IMG/VR virus record: IMGVR_UViG_3300043468_000930 | Coordinates: 1-23,716 of that record | Direction: 5' to 3' (one strand) | Length of the DNA stretch: 23,716 bases | Source: a virus | In this document: positions 201 through 21,117 of the stretch, piece after piece | Numbering within the stretch: the stretch's first letter is position 1 | Layout: each line of letters starts with the position of its first letter | The notes under the pieces: generated by a model | What the model was told of the DNA's origin: nothing | Seen by the model: only the letters and a program-made list of their open reading frames with translations | Database searches by the model: none | Program-made: the position numbers and the translations under genes

Positions 201-975
201 CGCGGCGGTTTTGGTTCACCACTGGGCGAGTCTGTCGCAAGAGTTGTAATTCGAACTCCTGCGGCGTAGCCTTGCTCTCAATCGCTCGGCGTGTCTCGGC
301 CTCAATCTTGGTTACGTCATAACCGTTATCAATCGCTCGCTCGGCAATGACTGCAATCGCTCGTTGGCGGCCTTGCTCTAGCTTGGCCTTTTCAAAAACT
401 GCCTGTACGTCTGCCTGCGGCTCAACCTGCGTGTTCTCTTCCATAGTTTCCTTCTCCTGAAATTCTGCGGCGACTGCCGCGCTAGTCGAGCGGTCGGCCC
501 CCAATGTAACCAAACTTACCTCGTACAACTCGCCGCCTCGCACAACGTATGCGGGGCCATTGATTTTTTGGGCGTTGACGGTCACTGTTTCGCCTTCGCC
601 GATAAATTGCGGCTTAGCGGTCACATCGACACCGACGCTCGCTTGCCATGGGAAGCCGCCTTTTGCGAGGTCGATTACCTGTTCCGCGTCTGGATTGCTG
701 GCAGAAATCACCCCAGCTATGTCGAGGCGATTTGGGCTGGTAATTGTCGGCACACCATGGCCCACAATGCGCTCGCTGTCGTGACTGCGCAGCAGCGGAA
801 TCGTTCTCGGCGTTTGGAGCGTTTCGAGGTCCACTACGACGGGGTGGCGGTATCCACCAACGCGAACGGGTCCACCGTTATACGCGTTCACGGCCACACT
901 GGGCCGGCTGGGTTCTGCACCTTCCGCGGCGGCTTGGCACTGAATTGTTGCTTCACTTTGTAGGCTTAACTTCAT
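1..975 (-). CDS. Prohead protease-linker-major capsid fusion, N-terminal part (runs off the left end)
   Basis: The reading frame starts at ATG 975-973 and stays open to base 1, then continues in frame at 23516. The joined protein has 638 aa. Residues 1-170 look like an HK97-type prohead serine protease (peptidase S78 family): H65 in RSHDSERIVGHG, S113 in WQASVGV, and E152 in ELYEVSLVTLGA are the expected catalytic positions. Residues 171-258 are charged and helical, like a scaffolding delta domain. Capsid sequence begins near residue 260. The start overlaps the portal stop as ATGA, so translation is probably coupled to the portal. A fused protease, scaffold and shell subunit would supply all three in equal amounts and needs self-cleavage to mature. 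An internal in-frame ATG (MEENTQ, residue 178) could in principle give an unfused capsid precursor. Such fusions are known in some phage families. Confidence 0.9.
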   Translation of the reverse strand, partial: MKLSLQSEATIQCQAAAEGAEPSRPSVAVNAYNGGPVRVGGYRHPVVVDLETLQTPRTIPLLRSHDSERIVGHGVPTITSPNRLDIAGVISASNPDAEQVIDLAKGGFPWQASVGVDVTAKPQFIGEGETVTVNAQKINGPAYVVRGGELYEVSLVTLGADRSTSAAVAAEFQEKETMEENTQVEPQADVQAVFEKAKLEQGRQRAIAVIAERAIDNGYDVTKIEAETRRAIESKATPQEFELQLLRQTRPVVNQNRRGQLPSAKVIEAALALGMGGTFDAEDHYKPEILEAASSEWKRGLSVTELLRICARRNGWTGESNKDVR

Positions 976-2480
976 TGCGGCTCACTTGCTGGTTCGTCCA
1001 CTACTTCTGTCGGTTCGTCAATGTCGTCTTCAATGTCCTCTTCCGGCTCCTCGGGCATCGGTTGCTGAGGTGCTGGGGCCGCTTGCTGCGGCGTTAGTCC
1101 TAACTCCCTCATCAACTGCAATTCCCTTGCTCGCTGCTTGAGTTCATCTTCCCAGTCGAGACCTCGCCGAGCGTATTCACGCGCTAGCGTTGTGGTGTGG
1201 TTGGTGAGCTCCGTCGCCTGGCCGGTCGCCTCTTTGCTGCGGTCAACGTGTTCGGCTTCAGTCCAGCGCCAAATGGGCGCCCAGTCTTGGACCGTTTCGA
1301 CAAATGCTGGCGGCAGATAATCGGGTATTAAAAGGGCCTCATCTAGCCAGTCGCGGTACAGCGGATCGAGAAATTGACGTTCATAAATTAGCACGCGCTC
1401 GGCGCTGCGAGTTCGCCAAAACGCCTGTAGGTCAAGTCGGCCACTAGCGTAGTTGTATTTGGAGGCATCAATAGCCAGCACTGCCGGCATATCAACGCAC
1501 CTGGCGGCCTCGCGCACCATCGACGTTACAAATTGCTCGAATGTCGCGTTGGGGTGTTCTGCCTTGAATTGCGATAGCTTTGCACCTGCTGGTAGCGTTA
1601 CCATCGCCCCGCGTTCAATCTCCATCCGTTCCCACGGCTCGGCTTGGTCCTCATCGTCGCTGGCGGCCATCTGTTCCAGCACTGCGGCATGATCGGCGGC
1701 GGTTTCGGCGGCAGTTAAGGTCGCCAGTACAAAACGGCGTAATTGGGCAAAGATTCCTAGCGAGGGCGTTAACCATGGAATGCCGCGTAATTGGCCTGGT
1801 CGGTCGGCGCGGAATAGATGGTATACGTCTCTAGCTGATACCCGCTGAGCCGTTTGAAATGGCGCAAACAAATCGCCGGGATGATTCGGCAAAACATAGT
1901 ACGCCATCACCTCACCGTTGGCGTCTAGCTCTGTTGCGGACTCATCAACGCCTAGCTGGGCAATAACCGAATCGGTCTCAAAATGGTCGGCCTCGAGTAG
2001 CCTGACATTGAGCCGAACTGGCGAACGCCAAAATGGGTTTAGGCTAGTAAACTTTGTGAAAAACGCTTCGCCATCTTGAGGCACCGCAATTGCTGCGGTT
2101 TGTAGCTTTGTCGGAATATCAGCCTCTGTCCACCACGCGTAAAACAGCCGGCCAACTTGGCTTGCTATTTCGCTAACCTCTTCCCGCTCTAAGTCCGCGC
2201 CCATATAGGTTAAACCTGGCGAGGGACCGGAACCAATCGTATAGTTTGCCAGGGTAGATACGATCCCCCGCGCGTAGCTGTTGTTGGCGATTTCGTAGCG
2301 GCTGCGTTTGCGCAATTGTCGCCGAACGTGTGCGGAGTTGGCACTTCTAGCCGATAAATCGTCCGCTGCCGCCCAGTGTCGTTGGTTATCGTAGTTGGTT
2401 TGCGCGGCGTCGTACTTCGCCTTGACGCGGACAAATTTGGTTTTAGCTGCCGGTTTTGTGAACAGATTCCACCACGCCAT
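972..2480 (-). CDS. Portal protein, lambda family
   Basis: The protein has 502 aa, close to the 533 aa of lambda gpB. The N-terminal stretch around residues 47-85 (NSAHVRRQLRKRSRYEIANN followed by GIVSTLANYTIGSG) and the later WLTPSLGIFAQLRRFVLATL are characteristic of lambda-type portals. The C-terminus is acidic and Pro/Glu rich. It should form the dodecameric ring at one capsid vertex through which DNA enters and to which the tail joins. The start overlaps the stop of the gpW-like gene as TAATG, and the stop overlaps the capsid-fusion start as ATGA. It thus sits in a coupled terminase-gpW-portal-protease string in the same order as lambda A-W-B-C. Confidence 0.93.
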   Translation of the reverse strand: MAWWNLFTKPAAKTKFVRVKAKYDAAQTNYDNQRHWAAADDLSARSANSAHVRRQLRKRSRYEIANNSYARGIVSTLANYTIGSGPSPGLTYMGADLEREEVSEIASQVGRLFYAWWTEADIPTKLQTAAIAVPQDGEAFFTKFTSLNPFWRSPVRLNVRLLEADHFETDSVIAQLGVDESATELDANGEVMAYYVLPNHPGDLFAPFQTAQRVSARDVYHLFRADRPGQLRGIPWLTPSLGIFAQLRRFVLATLTAAETAADHAAVLEQMAASDDEDQAEPWERMEIERGAMVTLPAGAKLSQFKAEHPNATFEQFVTSMVREAARCVDMPAVLAIDASKYNYASGRLDLQAFWRTRSAERVLIYERQFLDPLYRDWLDEALLIPDYLPPAFVETVQDWAPIWRWTEAEHVDRSKEATGQATELTNHTTTLAREYARRGLDWEDELKQRARELQLMRELGLTPQQAAPAPQQPMPEEPEEDIEDDIDEPTEVVDEPASEPQ

Positions 2481-6891: not shown

Positions 6892-7207
6892 CGCATTCAT
6901 CTCCTTCATCATCATCATACAAAAATGCCTTTCGCTCCTGCCGGATCTGCTCCTGCCAATCAGGGCCAAGTAGCTCTTCACAGCACGCCGCAATCCGCTC
7001 GATGCAACCGAACATCACCCACGGCATGTTTGCAGTCGCCGCGAGTTCTGCCGTTCGTGGAAGCTGCGTAATAAACCGCACTAGTCGCCGCTTGGCTTTT
7101 TCTTGTGCCGGTAGCGTTGCTTCCCATTCCATATGCTCAAGCATCTTGGTTATGTGCAGATTCAAGTCCTTGTCGTCTTGCTCGCTGAACTCATTGTCTC
7201 TCATCAT
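6884..7207 (-). CDS. Hypothetical protein with acidic C-terminus
   Basis: The 107-aa protein has a polar N-terminus, a middle rich in Ala, Leu and Cys (WVMFGCIERIAACCEELLGP), and an acidic tail ending DDDEGDECDE. AAGGA lies just upstream; the ATG at 7204 is slightly better spaced from it than 7207. It overlaps the next gene by eight bases. No family is recognised. The paired cysteines (CC at about residues 74-75) could be structural. Confidence 0.75.
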   Translation of the reverse strand: MMRDNEFSEQDDKDLNLHITKMLEHMEWEATLPAQEKAKRRLVRFITQLPRTAELAATANMPWVMFGCIERIAACCEELLGPDWQEQIRQERKAFLYDDDEGDECDE

Positions 7208-7214
7208 TCATTCC

Positions 7215-7508
7215 TTATCGATAATGTGCCGACCAATAAACTTTTCCACTGCGACCAATCGCATACGCTCTGGCTACGAGCCGATACTTGCGCGTTGTGC
7301 AGTGGTTCGGCCTGGCTACCGATGTACTCGATCCAACACCTGCAAACCGGCAGCCCGGCGCGATGCCCAGAAAATGGCCAACTCGTTCTCGGCTCGCCTG
7401 TAACTGCGCCTCGCGCTTCGCAAACGCAAACGCCTGGCTGTCACTGTTGACTTCTTGCGCTGCGGCGGCTACGGCAAGCAGTAGCCAAAAAATCAAAACC
7501 TTAGCCAT
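7215..7508 (-). CDS. Small secreted protein of unknown function
   Basis: The 97-aa protein starts with a signal peptide (MAKVLIFWLLLAVAAAAQ; probable cleavage after AAA). The mature part has two cysteines at about 53 and 70, and the pattern ERVGHFLG, GVGSSTS, then RAYAIGRSGKVYW near the end. From memory, similar short secreted proteins with an H-F, a Cys pair and a closing G-R-x-G-x-x-Y occur in Planctomycetes and associated phages, sometimes near CAP-domain genes; I cannot verify this. It overlaps the replication gene stop by eight bases. Being exported yet placed in the early block, it may alter the host surface, for example in superinfection exclusion. Function is unproven. Confidence 0.75.
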   Translation of the reverse strand: MAKVLIFWLLLAVAAAAQEVNSDSQAFAFAKREAQLQASRERVGHFLGIAPGCRFAGVGSSTSVARPNHCTTRKYRLVARAYAIGRSGKVYWSAHYR

Positions 7509-8322
7509 TAGTAGCTCCTAAATTTGCTGTGACTCGTTCGTGCATCTTTTGGAAATCCTCGAAAAACGTATCGGGCTTATCCTTGCCCTCGGGTTCCTGT
7601 AGACCCTGCCAACCCTTGCGTATGGTGTATTCCATGGCCGCTATCGAGCGATCCATGCCCCAATCGGCCATCTGCTTGAGTTGCTGCTGGGCGCTGGTGG
7701 GTGTAATCGGCTTCTTGATTTCCTGCCGATGGGCAATCCAGGTCGCCCACGCTCGGTAGAAATCCTGGGGGTTGCCGATCTTTAGGGAGTCGGGAATGTC
7801 TGCAAGATTAAATTCATAAGCCGGCTTCCTGCTGCGTTTCCCCCTTGGGGGTAAGGGGGTATTATCCTTAGTAGTAACCGAATCAGAATCAGAAACAGAA
7901 TCAGAAACCGTAACCCCAGCGTTTTGCTTCTCGTTTGCTAGACCGTTTGCTACTGCGTTTGCTTGACGTTTGCTACCGCCTTTGCTTCCACTTTGCTTGC
8001 GACATTCGCTAATTTCTTTTAGTCGCACCAACCTTCTGGAGTATAACACCCCATTTTGGTCCCTACTTAACACCCCCTTTTGTACTAATTCCTCGATAGC
8101 GTCAATTTTTTGCTGCAATTCGCCGCCACTAATTGCGTTTGCAATTTCTTCGTTAGTTCTAGGCTCACCGTTAGGCCAAACTAAACACCCCTGCTCTTTT
8201 GCTTCAAACATGTAGCAAAGCAAATCGACTAGCAAACCTCTAGCAAAAATCGAGCAAAACCGTAGCTCGGGATCTTTTAGCCAGTCGCCCGTGAAAAACC
8301 AAAACCCTGGAGATTTGTTCAT
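7501..8322 (-). CDS. Replication-initiator-like protein
   Basis: I start the protein at ATG 8322 (MNKSPGFWFFTGDWLKDPEL), giving 273 aa, because an intrinsic terminator occupies 8338-8378 and the K-S-P-x-F-x-F start is typical of phage replication proteins of this type. The frame is open back to 8409, but those 29 codons overlap the terminator. The N-terminal 110 residues look like a winged-helix domain of phage replisome organisers (TNEEIANAISG...IEELVQKGVLSRD). Residues about 115-170 are low-complexity (Ser, Asn, Lys, Asp). The C-terminal 90 residues are a helical domain. Embedded AGCAAA arrays and hexamer repeats suggest the replication origin lies within this gene, as in lambda O. The protein would bind the repeats and recruit a host helicase. 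Confidence 0.75.
   Translation of the reverse strand: MNKSPGFWFFTGDWLKDPELRFCSIFARGLLVDLLCYMFEAKEQGCLVWPNGEPRTNEEIANAISGGELQQKIDAIEELVQKGVLSRDQNGVLYSRRLVRLKEISECRKQSGSKGGSKRQANAVANGLANEKQNAGVTVSDSVSDSDSVTTKDNTPLPPRGKRSRKPAYEFNLADIPDSLKIGNPQDFYRAWATWIAHRQEIKKPITPTSAQQQLKQMADWGMDRSIAAMEYTIRKGWQGLQEPEGKDKPDTFFEDFQKMHERVTANLGATNG
7881..7910. repeat. Tandem AATCAG-type hexamers
   Basis: Five hexamers run head to tail on the plus strand: AATCAG, AATCAG, AAACAG, AATCAG, AAACCG. They are A-rich and lie beside the first AGCAAA array, in the position of an unwinding element. In the protein they encode a Ser-Asp-Val linker, so they may instead be a simple coding repeat. Confidence 0.7.
7923..7997 (-). 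repeat. Iteron-like array 1: seven AGCAAA copies
   Basis: On the plus strand TTTGCT begins at 7923, 7934, 7946, 7958, 7969, 7981 and 7992, so spacings are 11, 12, 12, 11, 12 and 11. On the minus strand the copies are AGCAAA, four of them followed by C and three of these by CG. The copies fall in all three codon phases of the gene (AGC-AAA, A-GCA-AA, AG-CAA-A). This argues for selection on DNA rather than on a repeated peptide. The near helical-turn spacing would place bound protein on one face of the DNA. Confidence 0.8.
8214..8258 (+). repeat. Iteron-like array 2: five AGCAAA copies in the opposite orientation
   Basis: On the plus strand AGCAAA begins at 8214, 8219, 8231, 8242 and 8253. The last four are spaced 12, 11 and 11, the same period as array 1 but inverted. 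The copies again occur in more than one codon phase of the replication gene. About 216 bp separate the two arrays; one isolated TTTGCT lies at 8198 and another at 8109. Confidence 0.78.
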
Positions 8323-8337
8323 ATTCCATATTCCAAC
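8320..8337 (-). promoter_or_regulatory. Paired GGA motifs at the replication-gene start (candidate CsrA site)
   Basis: Between the terminator U-run and the ATG at 8322 the minus strand reads GTTGGAATATGGA then ATATG. GGA occurs at 8334-8332 and 8327-8325; the second is ATGGA, fitting the ANGGA core bound by CsrA. The first GGA, nine bases from the ATG, is also the only likely ribosome-binding element. A CsrA-type dimer covering both would block translation. Binding is inferred. Confidence 0.45.
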
Positions 8338-8378
8338 AAAAAAACCGACCAAATGAGATAGTAGGCTCACTTGATCGG
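8338..8378 (-). terminator. Strong Rho-independent terminator after csrA
   Basis: On the minus strand a 13-bp stem (CCGATCAAGTGAG with CTCATTTGGTCGG; 11 Watson-Crick pairs and two G-U pairs) closes an 8-base loop (8365-8358) and is followed by seven T (8344-8338). This is a textbook intrinsic terminator. It lies between csrA and the replication gene, 15 bases before the latter's ATG, with no obvious promoter between. It may act as an attenuator controlling replication-gene expression. Confidence 0.9.
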
Positions 8379-8418
8379 TTTCGAGCGGTTGCCCGCGCTG
8401 TTGTTTCATAAGCCGCTA

Positions 8419-8628
8419 CTATTCGGCGTTATCCATTGTATCGCCGGCCTGTGGCCGATCAAGCAGTTCCTCCCGTATCACCTTGACCTCTGGCGAGGCG
8501 ATCACCCCCAGCCAAACGCGGTTGCCGTCAATCTTGGTGACCTCTACCGATACTGCGCCGATCCATATCTTTTCGCCAAGGCGGCGACCTAAAATTAAAC
8601 GTCCTGTCGATCCATGCTTCCTTGCCAT
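8419..8628 (-). CDS. csrA: CsrA/RsmA-family RNA-binding regulator
   Basis: The 69-aa protein aligns by eye with CsrA over nearly its full length: RLILGRRLGEKIWIG at residues 10-24, KIDGNRVWLGV at 32-42 and SPEVKVIREEL at 45-55. The RNA-contact residues L4 and R44 of E. coli CsrA correspond to L13 and R52. It carries a nine-residue N-terminal extension, which is unusual because the family normally starts at MLIL. CsrA dimers bind GGA motifs in leaders and block or alter translation and RNA stability. A strong AGGAGG lies 10 bases before its ATG, overlapping the RecT-like gene stop. A terminator follows the gene. Phage CsrA could rewire host metabolism or time phage gene expression; targets are inferred. 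Confidence 0.93.
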   Translation of the reverse strand: MARKHGSTGRLILGRRLGEKIWIGAVSVEVTKIDGNRVWLGVIASPEVKVIREELLDRPQAGDTMDNAE

Positions 8629-8632
8629 TGCT

Positions 8633-9271
8633 TTAGCCTCCTAGCTGGTCTTGAATCAAATCCATTAGCGCCGTTGGCCCCACTGGCCGAACGTCAATTG
8701 TCATATCGTCGATTTCATCCTGCGTATGCAGCCCTAGCGTTACCTCGGGACAATACACTCGCCCAAAAAACGTTGCTGCTCGGTAAATGAGCATCTGCTG
8801 CGGTATCGACCGCCACTTGCTTCCGTCTTTGGAAAACCAGCCGTCTGCCTTTGCCATTGCAATTGTGACTACTGGACCCTCGATACGCTCGCCCGTCGCC
8901 CGCTCGTAGGTGACCACGCGGCAACCCCAATCGTCCTGGCCGACTGTGCCGGAAAAAACGTAGTGCAGCCGCGTGAAAATCTGGCTACGGTTAATCAGCG
9001 CAATGACGAACTTGGCCTCAAACGCCGGCTTGCCATGAATGATTGCCGTATTTTGCATTAAAATTGCAGTGCTCATGTCCAGTCGCCGAGCGAGGTCAAT
9101 GGCGAGCACGCAATTAGCCACATTGCCTTTGTAGGCTTTCGGGGCGTAATCGCTGGCGGCCAGTAATTTTGCCTCGCGCTGGCTGTACTCGAACCACTTT
9201 TCGGTGATTTCTAGCTGCCGCTCCTGCCTGGCTATCTCTTCATCGGTCTTAACTTCTATAAGCTCACTCAT
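8633..9271 (-). CDS. RecT-like single-strand annealing protein
   Basis: The 212-aa protein starts at ATG 9271 after GGGAG. The middle carries NVANCVLAIDLARRLDMS, and the C-terminal part has WFSKDGSKWRSIPQQMLIYR followed by AATFFGRVYCPEVTLGLHT and an acidic E-I-D-D. Order and spacing (W..K..K W...P..M..YRA..F.R...PE...G..T..E) fit the RecT-type recombinases. It is neighbour to a YqaJ exonuclease, the usual partner that makes 3-prime single strands. Together they would catalyse strand annealing in replication, repair or recombination. The family assignment is by pattern only; it is shorter than typical RecT (about 270 aa). Confidence 0.75.
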   Translation of the reverse strand: MSELIEVKTDEEIARQERQLEITEKWFEYSQREAKLLAASDYAPKAYKGNVANCVLAIDLARRLDMSTAILMQNTAIIHGKPAFEAKFVIALINRSQIFTRLHYVFSGTVGQDDWGCRVVTYERATGERIEGPVVTIAMAKADGWFSKDGSKWRSIPQQMLIYRAATFFGRVYCPEVTLGLHTQDEIDDMTIDVRPVGPTALMDLIQDQLGG

Positions 9272-9449
9272 TTTTATCTCCCAAATACGCTTTAATCATT
9301 TGCTCCGCGGCTTTTTGCATCGCCTCTTTCATTGTGCGCTCGATCATGTCCACGATTTCGGCGTTGTGCGCTAGAAGGTCCACAACACCCTCGGCCACAC
9401 CGTCACGCACTGCGTTAAGCAACTGCCTTAGCAATTCCTCACTGTTCAT
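9264..9449 (-). CDS. Small hypothetical helical protein
   Basis: I start it at ATG 9449 (MNSEELLRQ), overlapping the exonuclease stop as ATGA; an apparent longer frame from 9527 lies within the exonuclease gene. The 61-aa product is amphipathic-helical, acidic in the first half and Lys-rich near the end (MKEAMQKAAEQMIKAYLGDK). It overlaps the RecT-like start by eight bases. Being wedged between the two recombination genes suggests an accessory of that pair, but nothing in its sequence proves this. Confidence 0.75.
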   Translation of the reverse strand: MNSEELLRQLLNAVRDGVAEGVVDLLAHNAEIVDMIERTMKEAMQKAAEQMIKAYLGDKNE

Positions 9450-10333
9450 TTGCTGGCCCTCCTCAATACGCGGTACTTGCTCTCTTCCACTTGGTAGGCT
9501 TTGCGCGTTTGCCAGCGATACGACCACTTTGCGCCACTGGGCAGAATTGCGCTTTCGTGGCCGGCCATTAGCTGTAGCATTTGATTTTCCAGCGCTTCCT
9601 TTTTCGTTGTCGCGGCTTTGATCTGCTCGCGTAACTGCTCGAGCTGCTGGTCAATCTCAATCGCTTGCTGGCACACTGGCCCATCGGCAAACACAAGCGG
9701 CTCCTCGCGTGTCGTGTACAGCGATCCAAGGATAGCGCGGTCAATTTGGCCTGGCCCCGCTTCCGGCTCGATACCGGCTTGGCAATTACGCCAAAACGCT
9801 TCTTCACGCACGCACAGTTCCGCAATAAACACCGGCACCGGCTCAACACGATGTACCACCAGTTTTTGGCCGCCAATCAAGCACGCAACAAACGCTTCTT
9901 TCGCACCTGTCACGGCTAGGTTATGCTGTACCTGCACTTGATAGTTGAGCGGCGGATCCTCTTCCCAGTCGCCGGCCCTGTAGCTGCTGGTGGTTTTAAT
10001 TTCCACCAACTTGTCTTGACCATTGCCCACGAACGCGTCTGGCGTACACGCTTGCCATTGCCGAGTTGGGTGTATGACGATCAAATCTTGATCCCAGCGC
10101 CGCACTGGTTCGCCCAGTCGTTCCGATAACGCGTCGCAAATCACCGGCTCAAGCCGGGTGCCCCAGTTCATTGCCTCGGTCTGTGAGTCGTTGACGTAAT
10201 CCACGCCTTGCTTGGTTGCCCAAACTTGTAATGGCGACCTAAAGGGGCAAACGCCCATAATTGCAGGGGCATCGCTGCCACCGATAAACTTGCGGCGCCG
10301 TTCACGCCACTCCATACGCTGCGTATCAGACAT
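9446..10333 (-). CDS. YqaJ-family (lambda-exonuclease-like) viral recombinase nuclease
   Basis: The 295-aa protein has the YqaJ layout: FIGGSDAPAIMG at residues 17-27, E62 in WGTRLEPVICDAL, then D99 in CTPDAFVG and E111-x-K113 in LVEIKTTS, and YQVQVQHNL at 131-139. These are the PD-(D/E)xK catalytic core and the downstream glutamine motif. The C-terminal third is coiled-coil-like (IDQQLEQLREQIKAATTKKE). It is expected to degrade one strand of double-stranded DNA ends, feeding the RecT-like protein. The start at ATG 10333 follows GAGGA at a rather long spacing of 12 bases. The stop overlaps the next start. Confidence 0.92.
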   Translation of the reverse strand: MSDTQRMEWRERRRKFIGGSDAPAIMGVCPFRSPLQVWATKQGVDYVNDSQTEAMNWGTRLEPVICDALSERLGEPVRRWDQDLIVIHPTRQWQACTPDAFVGNGQDKLVEIKTTSSYRAGDWEEDPPLNYQVQVQHNLAVTGAKEAFVACLIGGQKLVVHRVEPVPVFIAELCVREEAFWRNCQAGIEPEAGPGQIDRAILGSLYTTREEPLVFADGPVCQQAIEIDQQLEQLREQIKAATTKKEALENQMLQLMAGHESAILPSGAKWSYRWQTRKAYQVEESKYRVLRRASK

Positions 10334-10348
10334 GGTGTAATTTCGTCC

Positions 10349-10567
10349 TCATTTCTTTTCCCTTGCTTTTTTGTCTTCCAACCAACACTCGAAACACTTT
10401 GCTGTTGAGATGAGATGACCACACTTTTTGCACCGGTGGGTACGCCTCGAACGCCACGGACTAGCGTTTTGCAACCGTGAGAATTTATTGCGGCATCTGG
10501 CAGAACAATAGGCTTTGTCGTTTTTCGTAAGTGGCTCTCCGCATAGCCGACAAATCCTATCGGCCAC
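10349..10567 (-). CDS. Small double zinc-finger protein
   Basis: This 72-aa protein starts at a GTG (10567) and overlaps the previous stop by 11 bases. It has two four-cysteine clusters: C6-x2-C9-x11-C21-x3-C25 and C46-x2-C49-x8-C58-x2-C61. A basic segment (SRLQNASPWRSRRTHR) lies between them and the C-terminus is Lys-rich. It probably binds two zinc ions and nucleic acid. Its place near the start of the early transcript fits an early regulator or recombination accessory. The exact role is unknown. Confidence 0.82.
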   Translation of the reverse strand: MADRICRLCGEPLTKNDKAYCSARCRNKFSRLQNASPWRSRRTHRCKKCGHLISTAKCFECWLEDKKAREKK

Positions 10568-20098: not shown

Positions 20099-20281
20099 TC
20101 ACTTCCTGCGCGCTCGGAGTCGCGGAAATAGACGTTGCAAAAATGGCTTCCTTGCCACCACTGCTTGCCGGCTGTTGGTTGTGGGCTGCACCGATTCCAT
20201 TACGGTCGCCGCCGGCAAACAATTTCCTTTAGTGCAAACTGGTTCCTGCAATAGCGCTGCGGCTAAAAATAGTTCAATCAT
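20099..20281 (-). CDS. 60-aa secreted or membrane peptide with basic C-terminus
   Basis: It starts at ATG 20281, overlapping the peptidase stop as ATGA. A short hydrophobic N-terminus (MIELFLAAALLQ) looks like a signal sequence, followed by CTKGNC (two cysteines four residues apart) and a strongly basic tail (FLQRLFPRLRARRK). The basic amphipathic end could bind membranes or nucleic acid. Its position between the cysteine peptidase and the membrane protein suggests a lysis or envelope role. No family is recognised. Confidence 0.65.
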   Translation of the reverse strand: MIELFLAAALLQEPVCTKGNCLPAATVMESVQPTTNSRQAVVARKPFLQRLFPRLRARRK

Positions 20282-21117
20282 TGAATCACGGACTCCTTGA
20301 TAAAATCAACGCTACGCGGCCTTACTTCGCTCATATCGCTTAGGCCGACAAAATACGTGAATCGGTGCTGAAGCATCTGCCGCACTGCATTTGGCGTGAC
20401 GTAGGCCCAGCCATCCATGCCCCAGCGCTTGGACCATGAATTGTGGAGCAGATAGTAGTAGCCCTGGTCGGTCGATTTGCCCACTGCGGCATCCGGCACG
20501 TACCCACCGATAACGACTGCGTGACCACCACCGCCTGGCGCAAACCGGCTGATAATTCCTTGGCTGCTGGGTGTCATTGCACTACCCCAGGCAATGCCAA
20601 TGTTCACCAGTCCTGCGCCACTAGCCAAAAATGTTTTTACATCGGGTTCCTGCTCAATCCAGCTTGCACTTCTGATTTTATAAGGTGCAGCGGCGGACCA
20701 TAAATTGTTTGGTATTGCATTATATCCCCCGTACGGATAAACGACTGGTCTCGGGTACGGGTATTGCGCCTCGGGGCAAATGCCAAACTCTTTTGCAAGC
20801 CGAGCGCCTCCCTGTAGTGTTGATCCCGAGTCACCCATAATGCCTGACATTTTTTGGCTGCCGAGATACGCAAATAATCGGCTTAGCTGCAAATACTGGC
20901 CCTGCGTAGCGACGTAGTGACACCATTCAAGACAAGTCGATAGCGAGTGTCCTTGGCAACTACCCATGCTGCCCTGGTCCTCTGTGACAACAATTGGCCG
21001 CGGGTCAATGCGCTCGGGTTCGTCAAAATCGCCGCTTTTCAGCGCCATAGGTACGCACTCGCCCTGCAACTGCTCGCGGTCCTCGAGGTCAATTCGGTAG
21101 CCGTAGTTTTGGTTCAC
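20278..21117 (-). CDS. Papain-family (C1) cysteine peptidase
   Basis: The 279-aa protein starts at GTG 21117, overlapping the lipoprotein stop as GTGA. It has a complete papain triad: Q48 and C54 in DQGSMGSCQGHS, H199 in GGGGHAVVIGGY, and N226 in YLLHNSWSKRWGMDGWAYV. A conserved-looking STLQGGARLAKEFGICPE lies between. There is no long inhibitory prodomain and no signal peptide, so it would be made active in the cytoplasm, or be a virion protein. C1 peptidases cut proteins, not glycan. In this location it could act as an envelope-degrading lysis enzyme for a host with a protein-rich wall, or process virion or host proteins. Confidence 0.9.
   Translation of the reverse strand: MNQNYGYRIDLEDREQLQGECVPMALKSGDFDEPERIDPRPIVVTEDQGSMGSCQGHSLSTCLEWCHYVATQGQYLQLSRLFAYLGSQKMSGIMGDSGSTLQGGARLAKEFGICPEAQYPYPRPVVYPYGGYNAIPNNLWSAAAPYKIRSASWIEQEPDVKTFLASGAGLVNIGIAWGSAMTPSSQGIISRFAPGGGGHAVVIGGYVPDAAVGKSTDQGYYYLLHNSWSKRWGMDGWAYVTPNAVRQMLQHRFTYFVGLSDMSEVRPRSVDFIKESVIQ

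Follow-up and report, generated by a model that had tools for sequence, protein, structure and literature searches.

The interval between csrA and the replication gene (rep) of this virus holds a conserved module. Comparison of seven versions shows that a predicted promoter, a first hairpin (H1), a linker, a second hairpin (H2), a terminator hairpin (H3) and the rep start follow one another there, with the loops of H1 and H3 able to pair in a kissing contact. This anatomy is well supported by the sequence comparison, which also allows a function to be proposed. We moderately favor reading the module as a promoter-RNA-terminator unit that would by default produce an RNA of ~90 nt, and act as a transcription attenuator controlling the onset or dose of replication.

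The stretch of DNA analyzed here, which we call the window, is the IMG/VR record IMGVR_UViG_3300043468_000930, positions 1 to 23,716 (viral, 23.7 kb). Every gene to which we could assign a role, whether in head, tail, recombination, replication or packaging, lies on the minus strand, and the record carries a single csrA. Recombination genes precede csrA (Table 1), while rep, the start of which was fixed by comparison with relatives, is followed on the same strand by RusA, terminase and portal genes. Of 294 Planctomycetota genomes, about 25-30 encode relatives of the portal (window 972-2480, minus strand), mostly at 42-48% identity and with E values down to 2e-120, versus at most about 31% identity in Pseudomonadota. 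Since the portal is thus far closer to Planctomycetota prophage portals than to those of Pseudomonadota, the host of the virus is probably a planctomycete. Among the structural genes there is also a phage peptidase (window 20278-21117, minus strand; phrog_16701), which looks papain-like by eye.

Table 1. The csrA-rep interval and its flanking genes (window positions)
Feature	Position	Strand	Evidence or remark
YqaJ/RecE-like exonuclease, upstream neighbor	9446..10333	-	PF09588 5e-27; phrog_434
RecT-like annealing protein, upstream neighbor	8633..9271	-	phrog_561 4e-59
csrA, 69 aa	8419..8628	-	Pfam PF02599 CsrA 7.9e-12
Predicted sigma70-like promoter TTGATC-N16-TACAAT, in the 3' end of csrA	8435..8462	-	Scan; -10 ends 7 nt before H1
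Hairpin H1, GCCG-AATAGTAG-CGGC, predicted 5' end of the short RNA	8412..8427	-	Includes the csrA stop codon
H1 loop segment ATAGTAG, 7 nt, predicted kissing partner of the terminator loop	8416..8422	-	7/7 pairs in 7/7 versions
Linker with AACAACA	8397..8411	-	Alignment: CAACA in 6/7 versions
Hairpin H2, GCGG-GCAA-CCGC, GNRA tetraloop	8385..8396	-	Alignment
Hairpin H3 and U-tract, intrinsic terminator, predicted 3' end of the ~90-nt RNA	8338..8382	-	10/17 stem pairs with compensatory changes
Terminator-loop segment CTACTAT, 7 nt, predicted kissing partner of the H1 loop	8358..8364	-	7/7 pairs in 7/7 versions
GUUGGA Shine-Dalgarno region and spacer	8323..8337	-	(G/A)UUGG retained in every version
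Replication initiator (rep), O-like/replisome organizer, 273 aa from the 8322 start	7501..8322	-	phrog_678 3.3e-13; phrog_13246 5.2e-12

Using the rep protein as query, we obtained 38 viral loci. In four of these (L002, L003, L004 and L005) rep is alike over nearly its full length, and all four have the hairpin, the elements of L002 and L003 being identical. In the remaining loci, where the likeness is largely confined to the N-terminal half of the protein, the DNA upstream of rep is unrelated. A DNA pattern consisting of the conserved middle hairpin and the T-run, which is independent of both csrA and rep, led to three more versions. This brings the total to seven distinct versions in 14 IMG/VR contigs of uncultured viruses including the window, with one copy per record. 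Looser DNA patterns and RecT-based loci yielded no additional version, and a descriptor of the terminator plus the kissing hairpin, run over 1.7 Mb of both-strand sequence, recovered only the members and one unrelated match (L086) without H2. In cellular genome contigs, the DNA pattern scan gave 43 matches, none with the full element; the two best covariance-model matches from such contigs (L095 and L098) proved to be plain terminators. No element was found in 392 Planctomycetota genomes by a scan with strict filters and without a positive control, and csrA, RecT and the element were all absent from the DNA preceding related portals in 20 prophage stretches. In Rfam, the sole match of the window element at E<=10 was a chance one to LasI, far below the cut-off of that family, and L002 and L045 gave nothing at gathering level. 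As a separate observation, many of the loci L006-L039 have a stretch of the GGAATGGAAAGGA type in common, immediately ahead of the rep ATG.

The seven versions have a common architecture. H1 consists of a stem of 4-7 bp with an 8-nt loop and is followed by the A/C-rich linker, whereas H2 reads GCGG-GNAA-CCGC, N being its sole variable position. H3 has a stem of 15-17 bp running directly into a U6-7 tract, in other words a stable hairpin with the adjoining U-tract expected of an intrinsic terminator. In the window, its 17-bp stem and 8-nt loop span 8382-8341 and the U7 tract extends to 8338, with a fold z of -2.3. The distance from H1 to the U-tract is 89-92 nt in all versions, and that from H1 to the ATG is 102-105 nt, likewise in all versions and across three types of replication gene. 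Single-sequence minimum free energy (MFE) folds of the isolated RNA contain H1, H2 and H3 in each of the seven.

Covariation supports this structure, including the contact between the loops. Each version has, at the csrA stop or directly past it, a 7-nt stretch that is the exact complement of its own terminator loop, although the letters differ in five of them. The predicted 7-bp kissing helix is thus perfect in 7/7 versions, with both-side changes at four of its seven pairs; cognate H1 and H3 loops form all seven pairs, and when loops are exchanged among versions in which they differ, 3-6 of 7 pairs form. Across the seven distinct versions, which are partly related and recombined and come from one group of viral contigs only, 97.8% of the base-pair cells are paired in the named structure (32 pairs including the kissing helix). 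In this same set, compensatory, both-side changes affect 17 pairs and 45 cells; neither these two counts nor the 97.8% is reached by any of 500 shuffles, and sliding the partner by 1-3 columns lowers the pairing to 32-49%. In H1, all cells (100%) are paired and three of the four stem pairs show compensatory changes. We also considered a closing helix between CAACAA and UUGUUG, over the Shine-Dalgarno region, which is present in several MFE folds; it is nearly invariant, breaks in L002 and is unproven.

An earlier note, made from the window alone, had pointed to csrA, a terminator, a 15-base gap and an ATG preceded by two GGAs. All of these are present on the minus strand, the rep ATG at 8322 lying 15 nt past the U-tract with both GGAs in the gap. 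The hairpin and its U7 were likewise borne out, with a stem of 17 rather than 13 bp, and the hairpin turned out to form only the final third of a structured RNA that is conserved. Three features had escaped the note: the promoter upstream of H1, the invariant GNRA hairpin, and the kissing of the H1 loop with that of the terminator. The check that it had named beforehand, conservation of the terminator in close relatives, came out in its favor: the terminator is present, with covariation, in 7/7 versions, 12-15 nt before rep. As a class, terminator-like sites are not enriched in this region (6 found in 7000-10500 versus 4.3 expected from shuffles); it is the conservation, the covariation and the collapsing slid controls across seven versions that place this one above chance. 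One might object that the hairpin is coding sequence belonging to an N-terminally extended rep, with an accidental fold, since in the window, and also in L004, the frame is open from an in-frame ATG at 8409. Comparison refutes this reading, to which we give practically no chance. In L002 that frame has a stop between the hairpin and the start, so the hairpin is noncoding; the changes follow base pairing; and many rep homologs without the element start at MAKSPGF.

Upstream of H1, within the 3' end of csrA, lies the predicted promoter. In the window its score is the fourth best of 23680 positions on the strand and the best of its region. A site at the equivalent position is the best of the region from -400 to +130 in 7/7 versions, ranking 1-8 per contig strand, by an approximate E. 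coli matrix, applied to a virus the host of which is probably a planctomycete. In all seven the -10 box begins at -12 or -13 from H1 and ends 6-7 nt before it, and an extended TGn is present in the four in which the -10 hexamer is weaker. We compared the promoter with synonymous recodings of csrA. The observed score is reached in 3-10/5000 trials for four versions, in 265/5000 for the window and in 395/5000 for L004. In L048 the match is weak and often reproduced by recoding, but recoding is of little use there, since the stop codon is overlapped by the box. Codon choice thus does not explain the promoter in 4/7 versions.

This promoter bears on the proposal that replication would need read-through. 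No site between the terminator and the rep start of the window fits a promoter, as the earlier note had held, and since the terminator is kept and csrA is always immediately upstream, transcription into rep must pass the terminator. That part of the proposal is supported, whereas dependence on the csrA operon is weakened: with a conserved promoter immediately ahead of H1, rep may not depend on read-through from that operon, and the terminator may mainly attenuate the local promoter.

The other part of the proposal, a plain early-operon terminator combined with repression of rep by phage CsrA bound to the GGA pair, fares worse, and we find it highly improbable. The CsrA domain of the protein scores 45.4 bits versus a curated cut-off of 27, placing it in the family, and alignment to PDB CsrA chains shows that the RR near the N terminus and the R of the REE motif, which we take to be RNA-contact residues, are retained. 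Moreover, csrA is directly upstream of the element in every case, and none of the element loci was found without it; phage csrA genes without the element do occur (L021, L118-L122, L154 and L158, with L118-L122 coming from a single-protein csrA search). It is the GGAs that fail to follow. A GGA lies between the U-tract and the ATG in 4/7 versions, two being present only in the window, one each in L004, L047 and L048, and none in L002, L005 and L045; wherever present, it overlaps the Shine-Dalgarno region. Absence from three versions and a doublet restricted to the window leave the repression unsupported, and the promoter before the terminator also speaks against it. A further GGA, just after the -10 box in 6/7 versions, is excluded as a site on the short RNA because it is upstream of the predicted start, inside csrA. 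The element thus resembles CsrA/RsmA-controlled leaders in its adjacent csrA, but differs in having no conserved GGA recognition motifs and no conserved A-N-GGA in a loop; a CsrA-repressed leader would be expected to show conserved (A)NGGA sites, one of them overlapping the Shine-Dalgarno region. Such repression would in addition leave the kissing loop, H2 and the promoter unexplained.

According to the attenuator reading, RNA polymerase would start at H1 and mostly stop at H3, releasing a compact and stable small RNA, while a regulated fraction would pass H3 and constitute the sole obvious local source of mRNA for rep, together with RusA, terminase and portal. Kissing between H1 and H3, along with H2, would create a tertiary fold setting either the frequency of termination at H3 or the lifetime of the RNA. 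Candidates for the signal are changes in the translation of csrA across H1, an H2-binding protein, and the short RNA itself once it has accumulated. Transcription start, termination and regulated read-through are all deduced here from sequence signals. No competing conserved (antiterminator) fold was found among the MFE folds of the seven versions, which leaves the manner in which read-through would be regulated unsupported.

The own promoter, the compact RNA and the terminator with its U6-7 would also suit a free small RNA gene that acts in trans, its targets belonging to the host or the phage, with its location before rep being incidental and rep served by leftover read-through or upstream transcription. 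The AAC-repeat linker, which we liken to an Hfq (ARN) site, would fit such a gene as well. This is possible, with a clearly minor share of the probability, given that conservation runs beyond the U-tract and that the distance to the ATG is fixed across different rep genes. The (G/A)UUGG retained just past the U-tract argues for a role in a read-through mRNA. A ligand- or protein-sensing leader akin to a riboswitch, in which H1, H2 and H3 form the aptamer and H3 is its terminator, would account for the invariant GNRA hairpin, the covarying stems, the kissing loop and the placement of a terminator before a gene. We consider it quite improbable: since the stem of the terminator belongs to the kissing fold, aptamer and terminator are not seen to exclude each other as they normally would, the downstream genes are replication initiators rather than members of a metabolic pathway, and no Rfam riboswitch matches, which leaves the element outside known aptamer classes.

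Kissing loops and pseudoknots are used by plasmid replication-control RNAs such as ColE1 RNA I/II and the IncI-type repZ leader, in which an antisense RNA pairs with its target or a pseudoknot forms at the ribosome site of rep. The present element is like them in its 7-nt loop-loop pairing beside a replication gene and in loops that vary among relatives with complementarity retained. It is different in that both loops are in the sense RNA, one of them being a terminator loop. Among described arrangements, IsrK of prophage Gifsy-1 comes closest, a phage small RNA the transcripts of which partly pass its terminator into coding genes (PMC4825925). IsrK has its own promoter, an intrinsic terminator, a partial read-through mRNA and a regulatory gene upstream (antQ, an antiterminator) (PMC4825925); the promoter, the terminator and the downstream protein gene have counterparts here, as sequence signals only. 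IsrK, however, works in trans to turn on the translation of a small ORF, and the product to which this leads is AntQ rather than a replication initiator; the parts of the description on which this comparison is based mention no kissing of a first hairpin with the loop of the terminator (PMC4825925). In P4, base pairing of CI RNA with the leader is described in that source as causing premature termination of the replication genes (PMC4825925). CI and the c4 RNAs of P1 and P7 are similar to the predicted RNA of the element in being short and in originating from an operon leader, that of replication genes in P4 and of an antirepressor in P1 (PMC4825925, PMC2864571). CI is processed and pairs outside itself (PMC4825925), whereas here both partners belong to a single predicted RNA, with an intrinsic terminator at its end. 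The covariance model of c4 antisense RNA (RF01695, listed in PMC2864571) did not match the element.

The genes downstream of the element belong to three PHROG families. That of the window (phrog_678/13246) is matched by those of L002, L004 and L005 in the protein search; L047 has phrog_2509, with L045 alike by eye; and L052 has phrog_1408, with L048 nearly identical. The first two groups share a weaker phrog_678 match in the C-terminal half and are not wholly unrelated. Similarity of the element does not track that of csrA or rep (84% for L002-L047 and also for L005-L045), which suggests that the element has moved by recombination as a module, and its presence before initiators of three families points to a transferable control module. 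Exchange in a mosaic fashion can also be seen among individual loci, L048 and L052 having the element and rep in common with different csrA bodies, and L005 and L047 having csrA in common with different rep genes.

The element therefore represents a structured RNA family without an Rfam match and, within a literature covered in part and possibly holding an earlier description, new to phage gene control. It combines clear covariation, including a loop-loop contact that involves a terminator, with a location at the switch into DNA replication. A bolder and rather unlikely suggestion is that phage RNA regulators of a new class are at work here: a hairpin next to the promoter would kiss the loop of its own terminator and so set read-through into the replication genes, with the loops, which change fast yet always match, also serving as an intermolecular specificity code, as in plasmid copy-control and phage immunity RNAs, and csrA as a constant partner. 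csrA has been reported from 30/2517 phage genomes by a study that terms obscure what csrA alleles carried on plasmids do (PMC7366521); the element offers a testable link between phage-borne csrA genes, the role of which is unclear (PMC7366521), and the timing of phage replication. Finally, in two loci with another phage csrA (L121 728-915 and L122 2050-2330), the gene is followed by GGA-rich hairpin DNA ahead of a different replication-like gene. This DNA contains 13 and 22 GGAs versus shuffle means of 5.3 and 8.7, with tandem repeats in L122, and in GGA density it resembles a CsrB-type decoy.
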